Part shown: piece after piece, positions 20,117 to 30,680 of the stretch
Position numbering within the stretch: position 1 is the stretch's first letter
Layout of the letters: each line of letters begins with the position of its first letter
Assembly: GCA_028682895.1 (NCBI GenBank)
Contig: JAJRAK010000001.1
Location: 62,001 to 126,000, forward strand
DNA length: 64,000 bases
Origin: Methanomassiliicoccales archaeon
GTDB lineage: Archaea; Thermoplasmatota; Thermoplasmata; Methanomassiliicoccales; UBA472
Direction: 5' to 3'
Position numbers and translations under genes: made by a program
The notes under the pieces: generated by a model
Databases searched by the model: none
What the model was told of the DNA's origin: nothing
Seen by the model: only the letters and a program-made list of their open reading frames with translations

Positions 20117-22039
20117 TCACTCCAAATTCACGCCGTGCGTTTCTCTGATGGTCATGTCGCCCGGCGGCAGGATGCGGGATATCTCCTCTTCTGGCACTTG
20201 GAACGCTCGGGCGAGCGCTGCCGACGTCCTTCCCCGAGGCGCGGACCCCGGCCCCAGGACGACGTACTTCTCTGTGCGACCGAAGATGCTCTCCTTGGGG
20301 GCGCACATGATCTTGCGCGTACCATCGATCTGCACCTCGGCTACCCACATCTCCAGCGGCAGATGGTAGATGTAGTTCCTCTTGCCGCGGATGATGAACG
20401 CCCCCCTGGGGGCGAACTCACCGGCCTCCGGGCGCTTCGATACCTGGTCCGGGAGCACCCAGTAGGCGGTCCCCTCCGCCGCCCCGGCGTTCCAGGCCTT
20501 GGAATGGCATAGGGCGAACTGGCAGACCTCCTTCATCTCCTCCTCGGTGGCGTTCGCCCCTTCCTTTAACACGATGGATGGTGCGCCATGAAGATCGGCG
20601 TGAGAATAGCGCTCATTGTCCCCCAGGTGCTTCTTCACCACCTGGTCGTTGGACTTGGCGTCCCTTCCGCCGACGACAAGATGCCCTCCGGACGTCAGGA
20701 ACCACTTGTAGGCCTCGTACCAGAAGCGCTTCGTAGGTGCTGTCTTTTCCTTCTCCTGCAACGCCTCCTTCTGCCCCCTGACCACGCGCTTCGCGATGGC
20801 CGCCCTGGTCTCATCCATGGCCTCACGGGCACCGGAGGTCTTCTCCTTCAGCTCCTTGGCCTTGGAATAGAGGCGATTGGCGTTCTCATCTATTCCTACG
20901 GTATAATCGAGCGTTACCTGTCCGTCCCCGACCTTCATGACGAAGCTCTTGTCCTTCGGGTCCACAGAAATTACCAAGGGCACCTTCACGCCCTGGTCCT
21001 TGAGCTTCTCCCAGTTGTTCGCCTGCGATAGCGCCCTCATGCGCTCCAGCGTGGCGCTGACCTCGGAATAGCTGGTGTAGAGCAGGTCACCCTGGGCCTG
21101 CAGGGCCAATGCCTCGGCCTCCGTGGCCTCGATCCCCTTGAGCTGTTGCTCCAGCTGCCTTTGCAACCGTTCTAGCTCGGCGTCCTTCCGTTCCACTACA
21201 TCCTTCCGTTGCGAAAGGAAGGTGGCCAAAGCGGCCGACGGTCCGGCCATGTCCATGCACGTCATGCTCGAGTTGACCATCAGTGATATCGGCGTAGCGT
21301 CGATGACATCCTCTCCGTCGAGCACCAGGCAAGCATGCGGCGCATCGTTCAGCTCCTGGAACATATCTAATGTGACCTTACGGAGGACGGATATCTCATC
21401 GGGCGTAAGCGTGGACGCCTTGCGTGCCTTGTCCATGCCGGTGCGCAGGCACACCTCCTCTCCGTACTGCCCACCCAAGTTCACCGACGTCGCCAACGTA
21501 CGTACTAGGTCTGATTTCGAGGTGAGGACGGCCTCCTGATATGCTTCCGGCGAGGCGGTGCGCGGATCGAAGCGCGAGGGCGGATAGACGTAGTCCGCCC
21601 CTATCAGAACGTCCCGGTGGCGCCACTTCTTCTGTTCCAGGGCGTTTATTATCTTTCCCTCGTGAACCACGATGAGGTTGCCTTCACCGATGAGCTCGAT
21701 GATCATCTGGTAGTTACCTTCCCTGGTGGCCAGGTCCATGGTGACGATGCGGTCGAACTCCCGCTGCGTAACCGCCTGGATACGGGCGTTGTACAGCACC
21801 TTGCGCAGATGGACGGCGAATCCGGACGGGGTATCTGGAGTGTCCGGCCGTTCCGCAACCAAGTGCAGCCACCTTCCGTCCCGGAGCACAAGCTCCTTCT
21901 TCCCCTCTCCCTGCACGTTGATCCTTATGAGCACATTGCGGCCCTCCCAGTGGAATATCTTGTCCAGGAAGGCTCCGCGAACGCCCTGTAGCTCCGACGT
22001 GATGGCCGCCACGTCGAATGCTGTCATCTCTTTCTTCAT
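20117..22039 (-). CDS. NFACT family ribosome-quality-control protein (Rqc2/NEMF homologue)
   Basis: Archaeal NFACT proteins bind stalled 50S-peptidyl-tRNA complexes; bacterial and eukaryotic relatives (RqcH, Rqc2/NEMF) add C-terminal alanine/threonine tails. The 640-residue product has an N-terminal NFACT-N domain (MTAFDVAAITSELQ, VLIRINVQGEGK). A long coiled coil occupies residues about 300-460 (VERKDAELERLQRQLEQQL). A DUF814/NFACT-R domain follows, with GGHLVVGGRDAKSNDQVVKK and YSHADLHGAPS. I place the start at ATG 22039, preceded by GAGGGGGCG. Upstream in-frame codons would add a stretch that runs back toward tRNA-Thr. Confidence 0.93.
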   Translation of the reverse strand: MKKEMTAFDVAAITSELQGVRGAFLDKIFHWEGRNVLIRINVQGEGKKELVLRDGRWLHLVAERPDTPDTPSGFAVHLRKVLYNARIQAVTQREFDRIVTMDLATREGNYQMIIELIGEGNLIVVHEGKIINALEQKKWRHRDVLIGADYVYPPSRFDPRTASPEAYQEAVLTSKSDLVRTLATSVNLGGQYGEEVCLRTGMDKARKASTLTPDEISVLRKVTLDMFQELNDAPHACLVLDGEDVIDATPISLMVNSSMTCMDMAGPSAALATFLSQRKDVVERKDAELERLQRQLEQQLKGIEATEAEALALQAQGDLLYTSYSEVSATLERMRALSQANNWEKLKDQGVKVPLVISVDPKDKSFVMKVGDGQVTLDYTVGIDENANRLYSKAKELKEKTSGAREAMDETRAAIAKRVVRGQKEALQEKEKTAPTKRFWYEAYKWFLTSGGHLVVGGRDAKSNDQVVKKHLGDNERYSHADLHGAPSIVLKEGANATEEEMKEVCQFALCHSKAWNAGAAEGTAYWVLPDQVSKRPEAGEFAPRGAFIIRGKRNYIYHLPLEMWVAEVQIDGTRKIMCAPKESIFGRTEKYVVLGPGSAPRGRTSAALARAFQVPEEEISRILPPGDMTIRETHGVNLE

Positions 22040-22133
22040 CGCCCCCTCTAAGAGTACGGGAATGAAAAGGATTGTGCCTGTGACCAGTAGCAAAAGGTTT
22101 ATGAACGACCACCGGTTTGTCGGTGGAAGTAAG

Positions 22134-22208
22134 GCCACTGTGGCTTAGCGGTATAGCGACGCCTTGGTAAGGCGTAGGTCGAGGGTTCAATTCCCTCCAG
22201 TGGCTCCA
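22134..22208 (+). tRNA. tRNA-Thr (anticodon GGT) with encoded CCA
   Basis: The acceptor stem GCCACTG/CAGTGGC, anticodon arm ACGCC-TTGGTAA-GGCGT (anticodon GGT) and T arm GAGGG-TTCAATT-CCCTC are complete. The discriminator is T, common for archaeal tRNA-Thr, followed by a genome-encoded CCA (22206-22208). A GGTTTATGA box about 35 nt upstream is the probable promoter. Confidence 0.95.
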
Positions 22209-22242: not shown

Positions 22243-25200
22243 ATGGGCAGGGCCATGGTGGGGAATTTCGGGATCGTCAGGTTTCAGGTGATCGTTCTTG
22301 CAGCGCTGTTCCTGCTGCCTGCGATCTCTTCGTGCTCCGAGGGGGCGGAGGTCTTCACGCCCATCGTGGTCGAGGGCGACAGCGGCTTCTCAGCTGCGGG
22401 GTTCAGCGGTAGCGGGACATCTGGTGACCCGTATGTTCTAAACGGCGTATATGTGAACGCCACCGGTCAGCATCATGGGATATTCATCTCGAACACCACC
22501 AAGCATTTCATCATAACGAACTGCAGGGCTAGCGATGCGTTCACATCCGAGACCGATGCGCTGGACCTTCAGGAGAGCGGCTCAGGCATTTTGCTCTACA
22601 ACGTTTCCAACGGCACGATCGAGAACACAGTAACGGACTACAACGCCCGTGGGATCACGATATGCGCATGCCGCGACATCGTTGTGACCAACTGCACTTT
22701 GGACAACAACTACCGTACCGGCGTCTACGTGGTCGATTGCTCTGGTACCGATATCGTCATTTCCGACAGCGGCATCACGGTCAGCGATACCTCGATGGAC
22801 ATCGGTGTGCTGGTGCAGGACAGCTCTGACGTATCGATCAGCGGCAACCACATCTCTTTGGCCACAGAAGCGGGCGTTTGTCTTCGATCCACGACCACCT
22901 CCTGCAGGAACAACACCGTGGCTGACAATATCATCAGCGGGCTCGATGGGACCGGTATATTTCTAACTGGCAGCATCGCAGCAGAGGACAACATCGTCCA
23001 GGATAACTCACTGCTGAGCATATCAGGTCCGGCGATCAAGATCGAGGCAGGATATTCCAATGACATAATCGGCAACGTGATCTCCGGTTGCGATTTCGGC
23101 CTCTCATTATTGTCGGGAGCGGACGGGAACGAGATCGTGGACAACACGATGATGGACTGCGCATACGGTGCTCGTTTCGAGAACGGTGCGAACGGCAACG
23201 TTCTGGAGAACGATACGATGCAGGATGGGATGTACGGAACCTACATCCGATCAAGCGATGGAAATTCAGTGCGCAACTGCTCCATCATCAACATGTCCAC
23301 TACCGGGATCGACATCGGGACGTACGCGACGAACACTACGATCATCGGCAACCTCATCCAAGGATGTGGCTGGGGCATAAGGGCGGTCGCTGGCACCGTT
23401 CAGGTGATCGATGGGCTCGAGGTAATTGACAATATGATCAGCAACTCCTCCATCGGCGGTCTGTACCTCACCTATGTGACAGGATCTCAGGTACTGAACA
23501 ACACTATCCATAACGCATCTGGAAACGGTCTCTACCTGGGCATCTCCTGTGACGATAACGTCCTGCGAGGGAACACCTTCAGCAGCAATAGCCTTCACGG
23601 ATTGATGATACATAACGCTGATGGTAATGACGTCATCGGCAACCTGTTCCGGAACAACACCATGGAAGGCATTTACCTGGACAGCGGTTCCGGGAACACC
23701 ATCAGCGGGAACGTCTTCCTTTACAACAACGGAACAACGACCGTGCATGTCGAAGGACGGCCGCAAGCCTACAGCGCCAACTCGCTCAACAGTTGGTATT
23801 CAAGTACGGGCAATTACTGGTCCGATCGGACCTCTCCCGACGAGAACGGTGACGGTATCGTTGACTCGCCATACATCATTGGGCCGTCAGGCATCGATCG
23901 ATACCCGCTGACGAGCATCATCGGCTCATTGTCGCAAGTGCAGGCCATCGGCCTGTGGCACTCGGTGCAGCTGAACTGGACATTACCCGAGCACGTGCTC
24001 GTCAATGAACTGCAGGAGATAGTGGTGACGCGCGACAGCGGTCCCACCTGGACGTTGGACGGTGATGCGGAAGGACTTCTTGACGATACCGTGTCCTCCA
24101 ATGCCACCTACAGCTACACCATCGTGGCCAGCAATGGCATCGCAGAGGTCACTGCCCATGTCACAGTTACCACTCCCGATGTGTCCTCGCTCCTGGTCAT
24201 CACCGTCCCGCAGGAGGGGCAAGTGCTCCGTTACGAGGAGAGCACACTGTCCTGGGACGTCAACGGTCTCAACGTAAGCTATTATTCTGTATCCCTGGAC
24301 GGCGGCGCGCTCATCAACGTTGGCGATGACAAGCAATATCAGATGGACCTTGCGGACGGAGCGCACCAGGCCATGGTACGGGCGACGTTCGCTAACGCTT
24401 CATACCTCGAGGCGAACGTCAGCTTCACCGTCTCAGGATATCCTCCCTCTGCAGCGTTCCTCTCTCCTTCCAACGGGAGCTACATCTCCAGCAGCGACGT
24501 CGTGATCAACTGGTTCGGGGCCGAGGGCGCTTCGTCCATCGCCAGCTATTCGATATCGGTGGACGGCGGCGATTGGGAGGATGTCGGTCTGGTGAACAAT
24601 ACCACGCTGGACCTGGCCGAAGGGGCGTATCTGATATTGCTCAAGGCAATCGATTCCTCTGGGCGGGAGAGCACTGCGGCCAGCATGAACGTCACGGTCG
24701 ATATGACCTCTCCCAATGTTACAATGTTCTCTCCGCAAGGAGACCATGTCGCCCAGGAAAGCAATGTCAGCATCACCTTCTCCGAGGTCATGAATGCCAG
24801 CTCCGTCAACGTCACGATGAACGGAGCGTCTCTGACAGGCACATGGGAGAACCTCACCTATACGCTGTCCGCGGAACTGGATTACGACACCGAGCACATC
24901 ATCACAGTAAGTGGGCAGGACAGGGCCGGGAACGCCCTGACCGCTTTCCAATGGTCCTTCACGACCGAGATCGGTAACGCTACCATGTCCGGAAGATTGG
25001 TGAACAAGGACGGGGGGGCGCTATCCGGGGCAAAGGTCACCTGTGGGGACGCGGTCGCTTATTCCGATGGGAATGGCAACTTCTCCATACTGCTGTCCCC
25101 GGGCAATCATACTCTGATCATCACCCTGGACGGGTATCAGGACGAGGAGGTCACTGTAGAGGTCATTCCTGGACAGGACCAGGGCCTAGGCGATATCATG

Positions 25201-25299
25201 CTCGAGCGATCTAGCGGAATGATGCTCTATATCGTCGTGATCGGCATAGTGGCCGCCATCTGCACCATCGGCGTATGGCTGTGGCGCCGGAGGAAGTGA
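22243..25299 (+). CDS. Beta-helix (NosD-like) surface protein with Ig-like and regulatory-like domains
   Basis: The 1018-residue protein has a signal peptide (VIVLAALFLLPAISSCS), then NosD/PbH1 beta-helix repeats over residues about 50-560. These end in the familiar TSPDENGDGIVDSPYIIG loop. One or two fibronectin/Ig-like domains follow. A SbsA-like Ig domain is at about 820-910 (TFSEVMNASSVNVTMNG...DRAGNALTAFQWSFTT). A carboxypeptidase-regulatory-like domain is at about 912-985 (SGRLVNKDGGALSGAKVTC). The C-terminal helix plus RRRK anchors it in the membrane. It is likely a glycosylated envelope protein. ATG 22255 is an alternative start. It lies 34 nt after tRNA-Thr. Confidence 0.85.
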   Translation: MGRAMVGNFGIVRFQVIVLAALFLLPAISSCSEGAEVFTPIVVEGDSGFSAAGFSGSGTSGDPYVLNGVYVNATGQHHGIFISNTTKHFIITNCRASDAFTSETDALDLQESGSGILLYNVSNGTIENTVTDYNARGITICACRDIVVTNCTLDNNYRTGVYVVDCSGTDIVISDSGITVSDTSMDIGVLVQDSSDVSISGNHISLATEAGVCLRSTTTSCRNNTVADNIISGLDGTGIFLTGSIAAEDNIVQDNSLLSISGPAIKIEAGYSNDIIGNVISGCDFGLSLLSGADGNEIVDNTMMDCAYGARFENGANGNVLENDTMQDGMYGTYIRSSDGNSVRNCSIINMSTTGIDIGTYATNTTIIGNLIQGCGWGIRAVAGTVQVIDGLEVIDNMISNSSIGGLYLTYVTGSQVLNNTIHNASGNGLYLGISCDDNVLRGNTFSSNSLHGLMIHNADGNDVIGNLFRNNTMEGIYLDSGSGNTISGNVFLYNNGTTTVHVEGRPQAYSANSLNSWYSSTGNYWSDRTSPDENGDGIVDSPYIIGPSGIDRYPLTSIIGSLSQVQAIGLWHSVQLNWTLPEHVLVNELQEIVVTRDSGPTWTLDGDAEGLLDDTVSSNATYSYTIVASNGIAEVTAHVTVTTPDVSSLLVITVPQEGQVLRYEESTLSWDVNGLNVSYYSVSLDGGALINVGDDKQYQMDLADGAHQAMVRATFANASYLEANVSFTVSGYPPSAAFLSPSNGSYISSSDVVINWFGAEGASSIASYSISVDGGDWEDVGLVNNTTLDLAEGAYLILLKAIDSSGRESTAASMNVTVDMTSPNVTMFSPQGDHVAQESNVSITFSEVMNASSVNVTMNGASLTGTWENLTYTLSAELDYDTEHIITVSGQDRAGNALTAFQWSFTTEIGNATMSGRLVNKDGGALSGAKVTCGDAVAYSDGNGNFSILLSPGNHTLIITLDGYQDEEVTVEVIPGQDQGLGDIMLERSSGMMLYIVVIGIVAAICTIGVWLWRRRK

Positions 25300-25301
25300 T
25301 C

Positions 25302-25410
25302 TCACCTCATCCGGTAGAGGACGCGGACCACATGTTCGGCCCGAAGTAGGCGGACCTCTTGGGCATGCGCCGGTCCTGTCGTCCAGCTTCCATGCGATAT
25401 CTTATGGACG
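25302..25410 (-). pseudogene. Decayed duplicate of the 3' end of the DUF1015 gene
   Basis: This stretch repeats, in the same orientation, the last ~110 bp of the DUF1015 gene at 26353-26463. Over 25324-25381 versus 26379-26436 I count 54 of 58 identical bases, and the LYRM-stop ending is also kept. A 4-base and a 1-base deletion break the reading frame, so it cannot encode the same peptide. It lies between a surface-protein gene and the K+ channel gene. The channel gene is therefore bracketed by two direct copies. Confidence 0.85.
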
Positions 25411-25465: not shown

Positions 25466-26368
25466 ATGAGGCGTACGCTCGGTTATTCCATCATTGCCCT
25501 GTTGGTGGTCATTCTAGGGGGATTCCTAGGATTCCTAATCACTGAGGATTATTGGTCCAGACCCTTCGATGCCTTGTATCTCACGATCGTGACCATGACG
25601 ACGGTCGGTTTCGGGGACGTGGTGCCCGTGACCGTAGCTGGTAAGGTGGTAGCGATGGTCGTGGCCATCAGCGGCATCGCGGTGGGGATCTCAACGATGC
25701 AGGTCATATTCAACATGATCATCAGTAAGAACCTGAGGTCGGAACTAGGTATTCCAGAAAGGAGGATCAGGATGAAGGATCATTTCATAATCTGCGGATA
25801 CGGCAATGTCGGGCGAGAGGTGGCCGTGAGGTTGAACGCGAAGGGGGAATCATATGTGGTGATCGAACAGGACCCTTCTCGCGTACAGGACCTGGTGGAA
25901 GGGGGTGTTTCGGTGGTCAGGGGCGACGCAGAGGACGAGGAGACCTTGCGCAAGGCCGGGATCATGGACGCGAAAGGGCTGATCGCAGCCATGAAAGACC
26001 CTCCCAACATGGTGACCGTCATCACCGCCCGAGGCATGAGGCCGGACCTGCTCATCATCAGCGAGGTCGAGGATGACAGGAACGAGCAAAAGCTTCGCCG
26101 GGTAGGGGCCAACGTCATCGTGAACTGCTACCGCATGGGGGCGCAGATCATGGTTGGCAGGTCAGGACGGAAGGATAGGGACCCGGTATGCGGGTTCGAA
26201 ATGAATGGAAAGAACCCCCTGGAGATGAAGTTCGAGGAGAATACCTATCATTTCTGCTCCAAGGAATGCATGGCCGCCTTCATGGCCCATCCGGAACGTT
26301 TCGTCCAATGGCAAAAGGCCATGGAGGATAACTGCGGGACGACCATCATAGATCAGGCCATACGGTAG
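25466..26368 (+). CDS. Two-helix K+ channel with RCK N-domain and C-terminal YHS domain
   Basis: The 300-residue protein begins with helix 1 (SIIALLVVILGGFLGFLI), a re-entrant pore with the K+ selectivity filter TVGFGD (residues 46-51), and helix 2 (VVAMVVAISGIAVGIS). A cytoplasmic RCK/TrkA-N Rossmann domain follows (HFIICGYGNVGREVA, VIEQDPSRV, VVRGDAEDEETL), the ligand-gating module of MthK/Kch-type channels. Where an RCK-C domain is usual, residues about 233-279 instead form a YHS metal-binding domain (DPVCGFEM...YHFCSKECMAAFMAHPERF). This suggests gating or regulation by a metal or redox signal; that is inference. The 3' end overlaps the convergent DUF1015 gene by 16 bp. Confidence 0.9.
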   Translation: MRRTLGYSIIALLVVILGGFLGFLITEDYWSRPFDALYLTIVTMTTVGFGDVVPVTVAGKVVAMVVAISGIAVGISTMQVIFNMIISKNLRSELGIPERRIRMKDHFIICGYGNVGREVAVRLNAKGESYVVIEQDPSRVQDLVEGGVSVVRGDAEDEETLRKAGIMDAKGLIAAMKDPPNMVTVITARGMRPDLLIISEVEDDRNEQKLRRVGANVIVNCYRMGAQIMVGRSGRKDRDPVCGFEMNGKNPLEMKFEENTYHFCSKECMAAFMAHPERFVQWQKAMEDNCGTTIIDQAIR

Positions 26369-27540
26369 AGCACGAACCCGGACCACATCTTCGGCCAGAA
26401 GTAGGTGGACTTCTTGGGCATGCGCCGGTCCTGTCGGGCCAGCTCCCATATCATGTCCACGGACGGCGGTCGGAGCAGCACCATCAGCCGGTAGCCGGAA
26501 GCGACCTTGCTCAGCGCCTTCTGCGTATCATGCTCGTACTCCACCGACGGTTCGTTAGGCCAAGCGTCCCCTTTCAGCACCATCTCCTGGCACACGTAGG
26601 AGTCGATCTCCCACATGGGGTCCGATGGTAGATCCTTGGGCGAGGCCAGGTATGACCTGCCCTCGACGACGAGTCCGATATCGGAGGGCCCCCTTCCGTT
26701 CAGAGCAGATTCCAGCGTGGCCGGGTCCTTCATCTGCGTGAGCTCGAAGCCTTCCCCCATGATCTTCAGGAATCTTTCCGCGGGAATCGCCAGCTCCTTC
26801 ACCAGGCGATGCGTCGGATAAACGAGAAGTCCAGGGTCGTTGGAGGGGACCAGTGTGGTCAGCACGTATCCTTTCTTCACATCGTCCGGGTTCTCCTCCG
26901 CGTAGCGCGAGGCGGTCTCGAAACGATGATGACCATCGGCGATGAGCACGGTCTTGTCCTTCAGCTCCTCGGTCAGCGCTTTTATGGCGTCCACGTCGCA
27001 GATGCGGAACAGGCAGTGCCGCACCCCCTGGGGGTCGGTGAACTCCAGCACCCTCGTCTCCTTGTCGTCCATCAGGTCCTTGGTCCTGGCCGACAGCTTG
27101 TCAAAGATGCCGAATATCGATTCGCAATGTGTCTCCGTTCCCCGCAGCAGGTTCAGGCGGTCCTCCTTGACCTTGGAGAAGGTCTCCTCATGGGGGACGA
27201 CACCTTCGGTATACCCCTTGGCGGCCAATATGCCGATGATACCGGTCCTTTGCCAGCAGTTCTCACCCTGGCAAAAGGTCTGCTTGTAGGTGTAGAAGCT
27301 CTCCATCCTGTCCTGGGACAGGGCGCCCTCCTTCAACCATGACTCCAAGAGCTTACCGGCCGCAGAGTAATTACCGTCCACGCCTCCCAGCGTGATATTG
27401 GTGACATTATAGCGCTGTGCCTTGAGCCGGGCAAGCTCCTCAGAGGAGATGACATCGTACGGTGGCGAGACGCGCTCGATCATTCCCTCGCCGTTGCTCA
27501 GGCGGGGTATGAGCGGACGAAACGGACGGAAATCGACCAT
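26353..27540 (-). CDS. DUF1015 family protein
   Basis: The 395-residue protein starts with the family's characteristic MVDFRPFRPLIPRLSNGEGMIERVSPPYDVIS and contains NVTNITLGG and VPHEETFSKVKEDRLNLL. It also has the conserved IADGHHRFETASRYAEE and YPTHRLVKEL. The family is widespread in bacteria and archaea; I know of no firmly assigned role for this archaeal member. The GHHRFE core suggests an enzymatic site. Its last ~110 bp exist as a decayed copy at 25302-25410. It lies 37 nt downstream of the DUF362 ferredoxin gene. Confidence 0.88.
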   Translation of the reverse strand: MVDFRPFRPLIPRLSNGEGMIERVSPPYDVISSEELARLKAQRYNVTNITLGGVDGNYSAAGKLLESWLKEGALSQDRMESFYTYKQTFCQGENCWQRTGIIGILAAKGYTEGVVPHEETFSKVKEDRLNLLRGTETHCESIFGIFDKLSARTKDLMDDKETRVLEFTDPQGVRHCLFRICDVDAIKALTEELKDKTVLIADGHHRFETASRYAEENPDDVKKGYVLTTLVPSNDPGLLVYPTHRLVKELAIPAERFLKIMGEGFELTQMKDPATLESALNGRGPSDIGLVVEGRSYLASPKDLPSDPMWEIDSYVCQEMVLKGDAWPNEPSVEYEHDTQKALSKVASGYRLMVLLRPPSVDMIWELARQDRRMPKKSTYFWPKMWSGFVLYRMA

Positions 27541-28748: not shown

Positions 28749-29801
28749 TCAATCGCGCTCCGACGGCTCCTGCTGGGTCACACAGTGTATCCCGCCATAG
28801 CCGTAGACGAGCTCCTTGGCCAATATGGGCACGATCTCCCTTCCGGGGAAGTGCGAATGCATGATCTCCACGGCCTCGGCATCCTTCGGGTCATCGAAGA
28901 CCGGCAGGAGCACTACCTTGTTGCCAATGTAGAAGTTAGCATAGCTGGCCGGGAGGTTCCTTTCCTCCTCCTCTAGGTAGAGCGGTTCCGGCATCGGGAG
29001 CCGTTGAAGCTCCATGTCACTCTGTTCGCTCCATTGCTCCAGCAGCTTCCAGTTCTTGTTCAAAACCGGGGCGTTCTCTCCCTTCTCCGAATGGGCGCAA
29101 AGGATTGTGGACCTGGATGAGAAGCGGGCGAAGTCGTCGATATGTCCGTCGGTATCGTCCCCCTCTATGCCAGATGACAGCCAGATGACCTCTGGTGCGG
29201 ATATGTAATGGGCAAGATATCCTTCGATGTCCTGTTTCTTCAGATGCGGGTTGCGGTTCTTGTTCAGCAGGCACTGCTCCGTGGTAAGGACGCAGCCATC
29301 CCCGTTCACGTCTATGGACCCGCCCTCCAATACGATGCCTGGTCTGAAGAAGCGCACTCCGGACCGTTCCACCACTTCCTGCCCAGTAATGTTGTCGTAG
29401 AGCAGGTCATCATACTTACCGCCCCAGGCATTGAAGTCCCATTTGACCGCCGCCTTCCTTCCCGTCTCCTTATGCAACAGGAACGTCGGCCCGTAATCGC
29501 GTATCCATACGTCGGCGCTCTTGATGCGCATAAGCTCGACCTTGGACATGTCCGCGCCGGCCCTCTCGATCATGCCGGCAGCCTTGTTCTCAGCATCGGC
29601 ATCGTCCACCAGCATCCTGACCTTCTCCCCTCCGCTGAGGGCGGCGGCCATCTCGGCGAACACGCCTTCAACGTCATCCAGCACCTCCGAGGGGAAGGTC
29701 AGCGGGTTCTTCGGCCAGGAAAGCCACGTGGCCTCGTGCTTTGACCATTCCGGGGGCATGTAATAACCTAGGGCGCAGGGGTCCTTCGTTCTCATTCTCA
29801 C
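28749..29801 (-). CDS. aguA: Agmatine deiminase
   Basis: Agmatine deiminase converts agmatine to N-carbamoylputrescine and ammonia. The 350-residue protein has the guanidino-group-modifying enzyme motifs. These are DVWIRDYGPTF (substrate carboxylate/Asp region), LEGGSIDVNGDG, TDGHIDDFARF (catalytic His/Asp) and the C-terminal nucleophile Cys340 in GGIHCVTQQ. It begins 3 nt after the stop of the N-carbamoylputrescine amidase gene, so the two consecutive steps to putrescine are encoded together. No arginine decarboxylase gene is visible in the window. Confidence 0.95.
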   Translation of the reverse strand: MRMRTKDPCALGYYMPPEWSKHEATWLSWPKNPLTFPSEVLDDVEGVFAEMAAALSGGEKVRMLVDDADAENKAAGMIERAGADMSKVELMRIKSADVWIRDYGPTFLLHKETGRKAAVKWDFNAWGGKYDDLLYDNITGQEVVERSGVRFFRPGIVLEGGSIDVNGDGCVLTTEQCLLNKNRNPHLKKQDIEGYLAHYISAPEVIWLSSGIEGDDTDGHIDDFARFSSRSTILCAHSEKGENAPVLNKNWKLLEQWSEQSDMELQRLPMPEPLYLEEEERNLPASYANFYIGNKVVLLPVFDDPKDAEAVEIMHSHFPGREIVPILAKELVYGYGGIHCVTQQEPSERD

Positions 29802-29804
29802 ACC

Positions 29805-30680
29805 TCAATCCTTCTTCCGCACGAGCTGCCCATAGCATTCCGGTCGGCGGTTATGGAAGAAACGCCATCCTTCCCTCACTTTGGGGCCGTGGTCCATATC
29901 GATATCGGCGATGACGACCTCCTCGCCCTTGCCGCCCCTGGCCAGCGTCTTGCCGAAGGCGTCGCAGACGAAGGAGCCGCCGTAGAACTCGGTTTCTCCT
30001 TCCGTCCCAACGCGGTTGACGGCGCAGACCGGCATGGCGTTCGCTATCGCATGTCCGCGCATGACGTTCTCCCAGGCCTGCTGCCAATCGCCCTCGGCCT
30101 GTCCGATCCCTTTGACGGTGCCGATGGCCGTAGGATAGAACACAAGCTCAGCCCCCATCAGCGCCACGGAACGGGCGGCCTCGGGGAACCACTGGTCATA
30201 GCAGATGAGCGCGGACAGACGGCCGACGGACGTCTGGAACACCTGGAACCCGGTGTCGCCCGGCTTGAAATAATGCTGCTCGAAGAAGCCCTCGTCATCA
30301 GGAATGTGCGTCTTTCGATACTTGCCCAGACAGCGCCCGTCATTCTCGTATACGGTGGCGGTATTGAAATTACCGTCCTCGGTCGCCTCGAAGAGGGAAC
30401 CGCCCACGATCACCGTGCCCGTGCTTCGCGCCAGCTCTCCCAGCGCCTCCGTGACCCTCCCTGGGATGATGTTGAGCAGTCCAGCCTTATCCGCCAGACC
30501 CTCTGCATCCTCCCTCATCGGGAAGTACAAGGTGGTGAATAGCTCGGGAAGGCAGATGACCTGGGCACCAATGGCCGCCGCGCGCTCCGCCATGCTGATC
30601 GCCTTGTGAAGATTATCATCGGCGTCAGGGGACATGGCCATCTGCACCAGTCCCACCCTAAGCATGCGCTCCGTGGACAT
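29805..30680 (-). CDS. aguB: N-carbamoylputrescine amidase (carbon-nitrogen hydrolase)
   Basis: This nitrilase-superfamily enzyme hydrolyses N-carbamoylputrescine to putrescine, CO2 and ammonia. The 291-residue protein shows the Glu-Lys-Cys triad: Glu in CLPELFTTLYFP, Lys in GKYRKTHIPDDEGFFEQHYF and Cys in ALICYDQWFPEAARSVAL. The FEQHYFKPGDTGF and MRGHAIANAMPVCAVNRVG stretches are typical of the carbamoylputrescine subgroup. The neighbouring agmatine deiminase supports that substrate. The pair gives the cell an agmatine-to-putrescine route. Confidence 0.94.
   Translation of the reverse strand: MSTERMLRVGLVQMAMSPDADDNLHKAISMAERAAAIGAQVICLPELFTTLYFPMREDAEGLADKAGLLNIIPGRVTEALGELARSTGTVIVGGSLFEATEDGNFNTATVYENDGRCLGKYRKTHIPDDEGFFEQHYFKPGDTGFQVFQTSVGRLSALICYDQWFPEAARSVALMGAELVFYPTAIGTVKGIGQAEGDWQQAWENVMRGHAIANAMPVCAVNRVGTEGETEFYGGSFVCDAFGKTLARGGKGEEVVIADIDMDHGPKVREGWRFFHNRRPECYGQLVRKKD

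Follow-up and report, generated by a model that had tools for sequence, protein, structure and literature searches.

A lineage-specific RCK potassium channel whose C-terminal RCK lobe is replaced by a YHS domain, and its possible gating by metal or thiol state

Can the C-terminal lobe of a K+ channel gating ring be exchanged for a metal-binding domain, and to what might such a channel respond? The question is raised by a gene in the window (the whole stretch of 64,000 nucleotides that was analysed), which a first-pass annotation had described as a channel with a TVGFGD pore and a TrkA-N domain, ending in a YHS domain in place of RCK-C. The open reading frame was recovered with exactly the boundaries first reported, on the + strand, and with Pfam matches to Ion_trans_2 and TrkA_N. 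The following features were assigned.

25466–26368, + strand: K+ channel gene, pore, RCK_N and YHS, 300 aa (open reading frame; Pfam; 16 full-length orthologs)
25496–25720, + strand: pore domain Ion_trans_2, residues 11–85 (Pfam, E = 7.9e-15)
25601–25618, + strand: selectivity filter TVGFGD, residues 46–51 (sequence)
25784–26125, + strand: RCK_N/TrkA_N, residues 107–220 (Pfam, E = 3.5e-31, 108 bits)
26180–26308, + strand: YHS domain PF04945, residues 239–281 (Pfam, E = 4.5e-10)

The RCK_N domain directly follows the inner helix, which is a trait of RCK (KTN) channels. The filter residues T46, V47, G48, G50 and D51 were unchanged across 16 orthologs, the only variation being F/Y. The GxGxxG nucleotide motif of RCK_N was also invariant among the orthologs (G111, G113 and G116), and Glu134 was kept in at least 90% of them. 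A profile search of the C-terminus returned YHS at 39.8 bits, above the curated cut-off of 30.3, and Ion_trans_2, TrkA_N and YHS were each matched individually in all 16 orthologs. Pfam gave no match to TrkA_C (RCK_C) for the window channel, nor did this family appear in the matches of the 16 orthologs. TrkA_C occupies the position of the YHS in the three unfused relatives checked (L006, L009 and L010), which bears out the replacement originally proposed. Because another unfused relative in the same phylum, L026, also lacks TrkA_C, this domain was taken as common in RCK channels rather than strictly defining. The channel is the sole Ion_trans_2 match in the window genome, where the further TrkA_N matches are a two-domain TrkA-like open reading frame and one weak hit.

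An AlphaFold2 model built from a 28-row alignment had a mean pLDDT of 87.5, with both the RCK core and the YHS core above 90. The model of the C-terminus agreed with the domain assignment, placing the YHS core (residues 251–280, pLDDT 91–95) behind a confident RCK_N, and confidence dropped to about 67–70 around residues 221–240. A model of the isolated YHS, made with no alignment, was of poor confidence (pLDDT 55). A fold search with the channel model retrieved RCK structures at Z of about 19–21, and the nearest solved proteins by sequence were GsuK and MthK, with alignments running to about residue 230. Searched by itself against PDB sequences, the YHS part returned nothing beyond weak matches such as eL24 and phenol hydroxylase.

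An ortholog-profile search found the complete pore-RCK_N-YHS protein in 16 of 147 genomes of the same order, and also one further tail fragment. The 16 genomes span four families of one archaeal order, apparently Methanomassiliicoccales, and the closest named record of a fused channel is from a Methanomassiliicoccales MAG (73% identical). About 85,000 species genomes were also scanned, at a sensitivity that reaches only close relatives, and yielded a single fused protein. The 389 sampled genomes of the same phylum gave no full-length match outside the order, the relatives there aligning only to about residue 245, and in a sample of 842 genomes across five bacterial phyla no match extended through the YHS. 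Bacterial matches passing residue 240 have long open reading frames, and the two best of the WOR-3 matches finish in RCK_C-like sequence. Plasmid and phage records contained no YHS-fused channel. The first-pass annotation knew of no described RCK-YHS channel, and searches of 5.39 million open papers for YHS in connection with potassium or with ion channels likewise found no description of this architecture. The pore-RCK_N-YHS protein is thus a real, lineage-specific and new form within the RCK K+ channel family. A chimeric assembly or frameshift artefact was ruled out, because the same three-domain protein is present in 16 genomes.

In a tree of the pore and RCK_N regions the 18 fused rows formed one branch (support 94/95). 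In all seven whole-genome neighbourhoods examined the channel lay between the following two genes, and the DUF1015 side of this slot was also seen in the named record.

20117–22138, - strand: NFACT (RqcH-type) gene, conserved neighbour (Pfam; synteny)
26353–27540, - strand: DUF1015 gene, conserved neighbour, convergent and overlapping the channel stop (Pfam; synteny)

The sequence data indicate that the fused channel is a single clade whose gene has been inherited vertically at a fixed position. Its recent arrival by horizontal transfer together with a metal-resistance island was rejected, since the NFACT-DUF1015 slot is conserved and neither neighbour is a metal gene. The YHS part had a dN/dS of 0.11–0.23 over ten pairs (Nei-Gojobori), similar to the pore and RCK_N, with synonymous sites near saturation in most of the ten pairs; judged from these ratios, it is under purifying selection.

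The slot has some local variation. A gene for a beta-helix/NosD-like surface protein of 1018 aa (22243–25299) lies between NFACT and the channel in the window and in the same-genus relatives L081 and L082 only, and is absent there from five more distant neighbourhoods. Just upstream of the channel, 25308–25393 repeats 3'-terminal sequence of the DUF1015 gene, an extra copy seen only in the window genome among those compared, and it forms with 26359–26449 a direct repeat (86% identical) that could be the remnant of a tandem duplication. Further along, at 28749–30680, a PAD_porph (agmatine deiminase-like) gene adjoins a carbon-nitrogen hydrolase (N-carbamoylputrescine amidase-like) gene, and the pair probably represents a putrescine route.

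Two features absent from the first-pass annotation are a conserved candidate internal start, which is new here, and a pair of invariant cysteines. The first lies in the linker between the pore and RCK_N.

25760–25765, + strand: internal Shine-Dalgarno-like AGGAGG, codons Arg99-Arg100 (conserved in orthologs, codon choice)
25772–26368, + strand: predicted second product, soluble RCK_N-YHS from Met103, 198 aa (Shine-Dalgarno and ATG, MthK precedent)

The AGGAGG stands 6 nt before the ATG of Met103 (region 25760–25774) and precedes Met103 in 12 of the 14 orthologs that have RRxxM. Among orthologs with two Arg residues at this point, AGG was used at codon 99 in 14/14 and at codon 100 in 12/14. In the family as a whole 39% of Arg codons are AGG, and other conserved Arg columns reached at most 7/12 (58%); these counts come from related sequences and carry no formal probability. 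Two orthologs (L061 and L066) have neither Met at 103 nor the AGGAGG, whereas in L057 and L060 the Met is present and the motif incomplete. The pattern indicates that a synonymous choice among the six-fold degenerate Arg codons has been held fixed, spelling a Shine-Dalgarno site. In MthK, translation from the internal Met107 yields the soluble RCK subunits (PMC9440719), and internal starts are reportedly used by most prokaryotic channels with a single RCK (PMC3510474). Together, codon choice and precedent suggest that an MthK-style start at Met103 yields a soluble RCK-YHS subunit, from which an octameric gating ring would follow.

The published metal set of YHS domains is one Asp and three Cys (PMC4626032), and the window channel holds it in full as D239, C242, C264 and C268. 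The CxF of the first-pass annotation is correct as written, although the motif concerned, DPVCGF, supplies a single Cys followed by G-F; comparison with the literature was made with the set Asp239, Cys242, Cys264 and Cys268 rather than with CxF alone. With the identical L003 and L053 taken once in the ortholog cysteine counts, Asp239 was invariant among the 16 orthologs, Cys242 and Cys268 were retained in 15, and position 264 was Cys in ten, Asp in four, His in one and Thr in one. In L066 (L066:2–865) the three motif cysteines are replaced by N, T and N, and its YHS still scores 31.5 bits. The canonical three-Cys site is therefore not essential across the family, given that Cys264 is replaced in 6/16 and that L066 lacks all three. 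The two remaining cysteines of interest flank the domain.

26126–26128, + strand: Cys221, end of RCK_N, invariant in 16/16 fused channels (ortholog alignment)
26333–26335, + strand: Cys290, C-terminal tail, invariant in 16/16 orthologs (ortholog alignment)

In the 32 unfused relatives scored, position 221 was mostly Pro and never Cys. Because of this, and of their invariance in the fused proteins, Cys221 and Cys290 were called fusion-specific. They may link the YHS with the ring, acting either as ligands of the metal or as a pair of thiols. L066 keeps the equivalents of both, and so offers a natural experiment on the importance of each cysteine.

The explanation that we favour, and whose probability as a whole we would put in the middle of the scale, is of an MthK-like channel with two products. 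One gene would give a pore-linked subunit and a soluble RCK_N-YHS subunit from Met103, and both types would assemble in the manner of MthK into a cytoplasmic gating ring, octameric in the proposal, below a tetrameric pore. RCK_N would retain its glycine-rich nucleotide motif, and the YHS would substitute for TrkA_C, normally the ligand-binding C-terminal lobe. The YHS would bind a soft transition metal through Asp239 and Cys242, Cys264 and Cys268, with copper the first guess and Zn, Fe and Ni possible. Cys221 and Cys290 would anchor the YHS tail on the RCK core, either as additional ligands or by forming a thiol switch. The metal or thiol state would then alter the ring so that the K+ pore opens or closes, the direction of gating and the physiological signal being, like metal binding itself, parts of the proposal that we infer.

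Gating by thiophilic metals or redox, as first suggested, is plausible by analogy, because the YHS domain that replaces TrkA_C senses copper in another protein. A second YHS above the cut-off was found in the window genome, in a 48-aa open reading frame beside a gene for a CopA-like P-type ATPase, at its 3' end. The ATPase frame (L001:10–1638) is followed directly by this stand-alone YHS, an arrangement that fits a copper role of YHS in this genome, although such a role is not thereby proven for the channel. No metal gene was found among the conserved channel neighbours (NFACT and DUF1015), which counts against the metal reading, as do the variable Cys264 and the loss of the motif cysteines in L066.

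Sequence does not distinguish between metal sensing, a structural metal, thiol switching and plain docking, and each was weighed. The YHS might be a constitutive, zinc-finger-like structural metal module that stabilises the ring in place of TrkA_C, with the nucleotide bound by RCK_N as the gating signal. This is on the unlikely side, even though GxGxxG and Glu134 are conserved here as they are in nucleotide-binding RCK domains and GsuK pairs a Zn site of unclear role with activation by nucleotides; structural sites are usually strongly conserved, and here one ligand varies among C, D, H and T and one ortholog lacks three. We consider it less likely again that Cys221 and Cys290 act by a reversible disulfide or by reaction with electrophiles, with metal binding by the YHS secondary or absent. 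Such a switch would resemble Kef, which releases K+ on exposure to electrophiles, and would account for a pair that persists in L066 where the YHS ligands do not, and for a position 221 that is specific to the fusion. The two cysteines could equally be metal ligands, however, and from the general biology of its order the organism should be a strict anaerobe whose cytosol is reducing. Least probable is a protein-docking or assembly domain with no metal role, which would suit the YHS of L066, scoring without its motif cysteines, and that of toluene-4-hydroxylase, metal-free in its crystal (PMC4626032), but which sits poorly with the retention of Cys242 and Cys268 in 15/16 and with an Asp or His at 264 that could still coordinate metal.

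Returning to the proposal of a metal- or thiol-gated channel, its strongest form would be a new class of channel with YHS sensors on the gating ring. In it, the K+ valve of an anaerobic archaeon would be opened directly by a thiophilic metal, with copper as the first candidate, or by oxidation of thiols. This we regard as doubtful, if still worth entertaining. Across K+ channels and transporters, from archaea to Slo/BK, the RCK ring is the common switch. If the proposal is true, the swap of a ligand lobe for a metal-binding domain would make the RCK ring a modular sensor platform and the channel a genetically encoded metal-to-potassium switch, and would suggest that methanogens answer metal or electrophile stress through K+. 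For YHS function, on which a single direct study was found, the channel offers a small and simple test protein.

Among known systems, MthK likewise combines a two-helix pore with one RCK per subunit, and it aligned over residues 9–230. MthK has an internal start in the pore-RCK linker, for which the window channel has a conserved candidate; by alignment Met107 of MthK falls about nine residues before Met103. In contrast, MthK has RCK_C and no YHS, the window channel the reverse, and the GxGxxG motif of the window channel is absent from MthK. The Ca2+ ligands of MthK are Asp184, Glu210 and Glu212; by alignment this site is incomplete in the window channel, where Asp184 corresponds to Ala175, and Glu210 and Glu212 to Glu200 and Glu202. 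The E. coli Kch type (PRK10537, voltage-gated K+ channel protein) was the top NCBIfam model, but it scored 127 bits against a cut-off of 425, left model positions 1–150 unmatched and covered residues 9–230, ending before the YHS.

The best solved relative by both sequence and fold is GsuK, a multi-ligand K+ channel of Geobacter, which shares the nucleotide-binding RCK. Its gating ring carries a Cys/His Zn site without known function, and it is activated by ADP and NAD+ (PMC3510474). Unlike the window channel, GsuK has two tandem RCK domains per subunit, and its Zn site lies in RCK2 rather than in an appended YHS. A Cys/His metal site within an RCK ring was counted as precedent for the favoured explanation, and its lack of function was counted against it. 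In the KefC K+/H+ exchanger, a fold match, RCK_N control of K+ efflux is tied to thiol chemistry; KefC differs in being an exchanger, in binding glutathione and in having no YHS. The direct functional precedent for the C-terminus is the adenylyl cyclase of Mycobacterium phlei, which is silent with Mg2+ and is switched on specifically by Cu2+ via a C-terminal YHS, whose Asp and three Cys are implicated in the switch (PMC4626032). This enzyme is bacterial, makes cAMP and has no K+ pore, but it shares with the window channel a C-terminal YHS placed on a signalling output and the motif of one Asp and three Cys.
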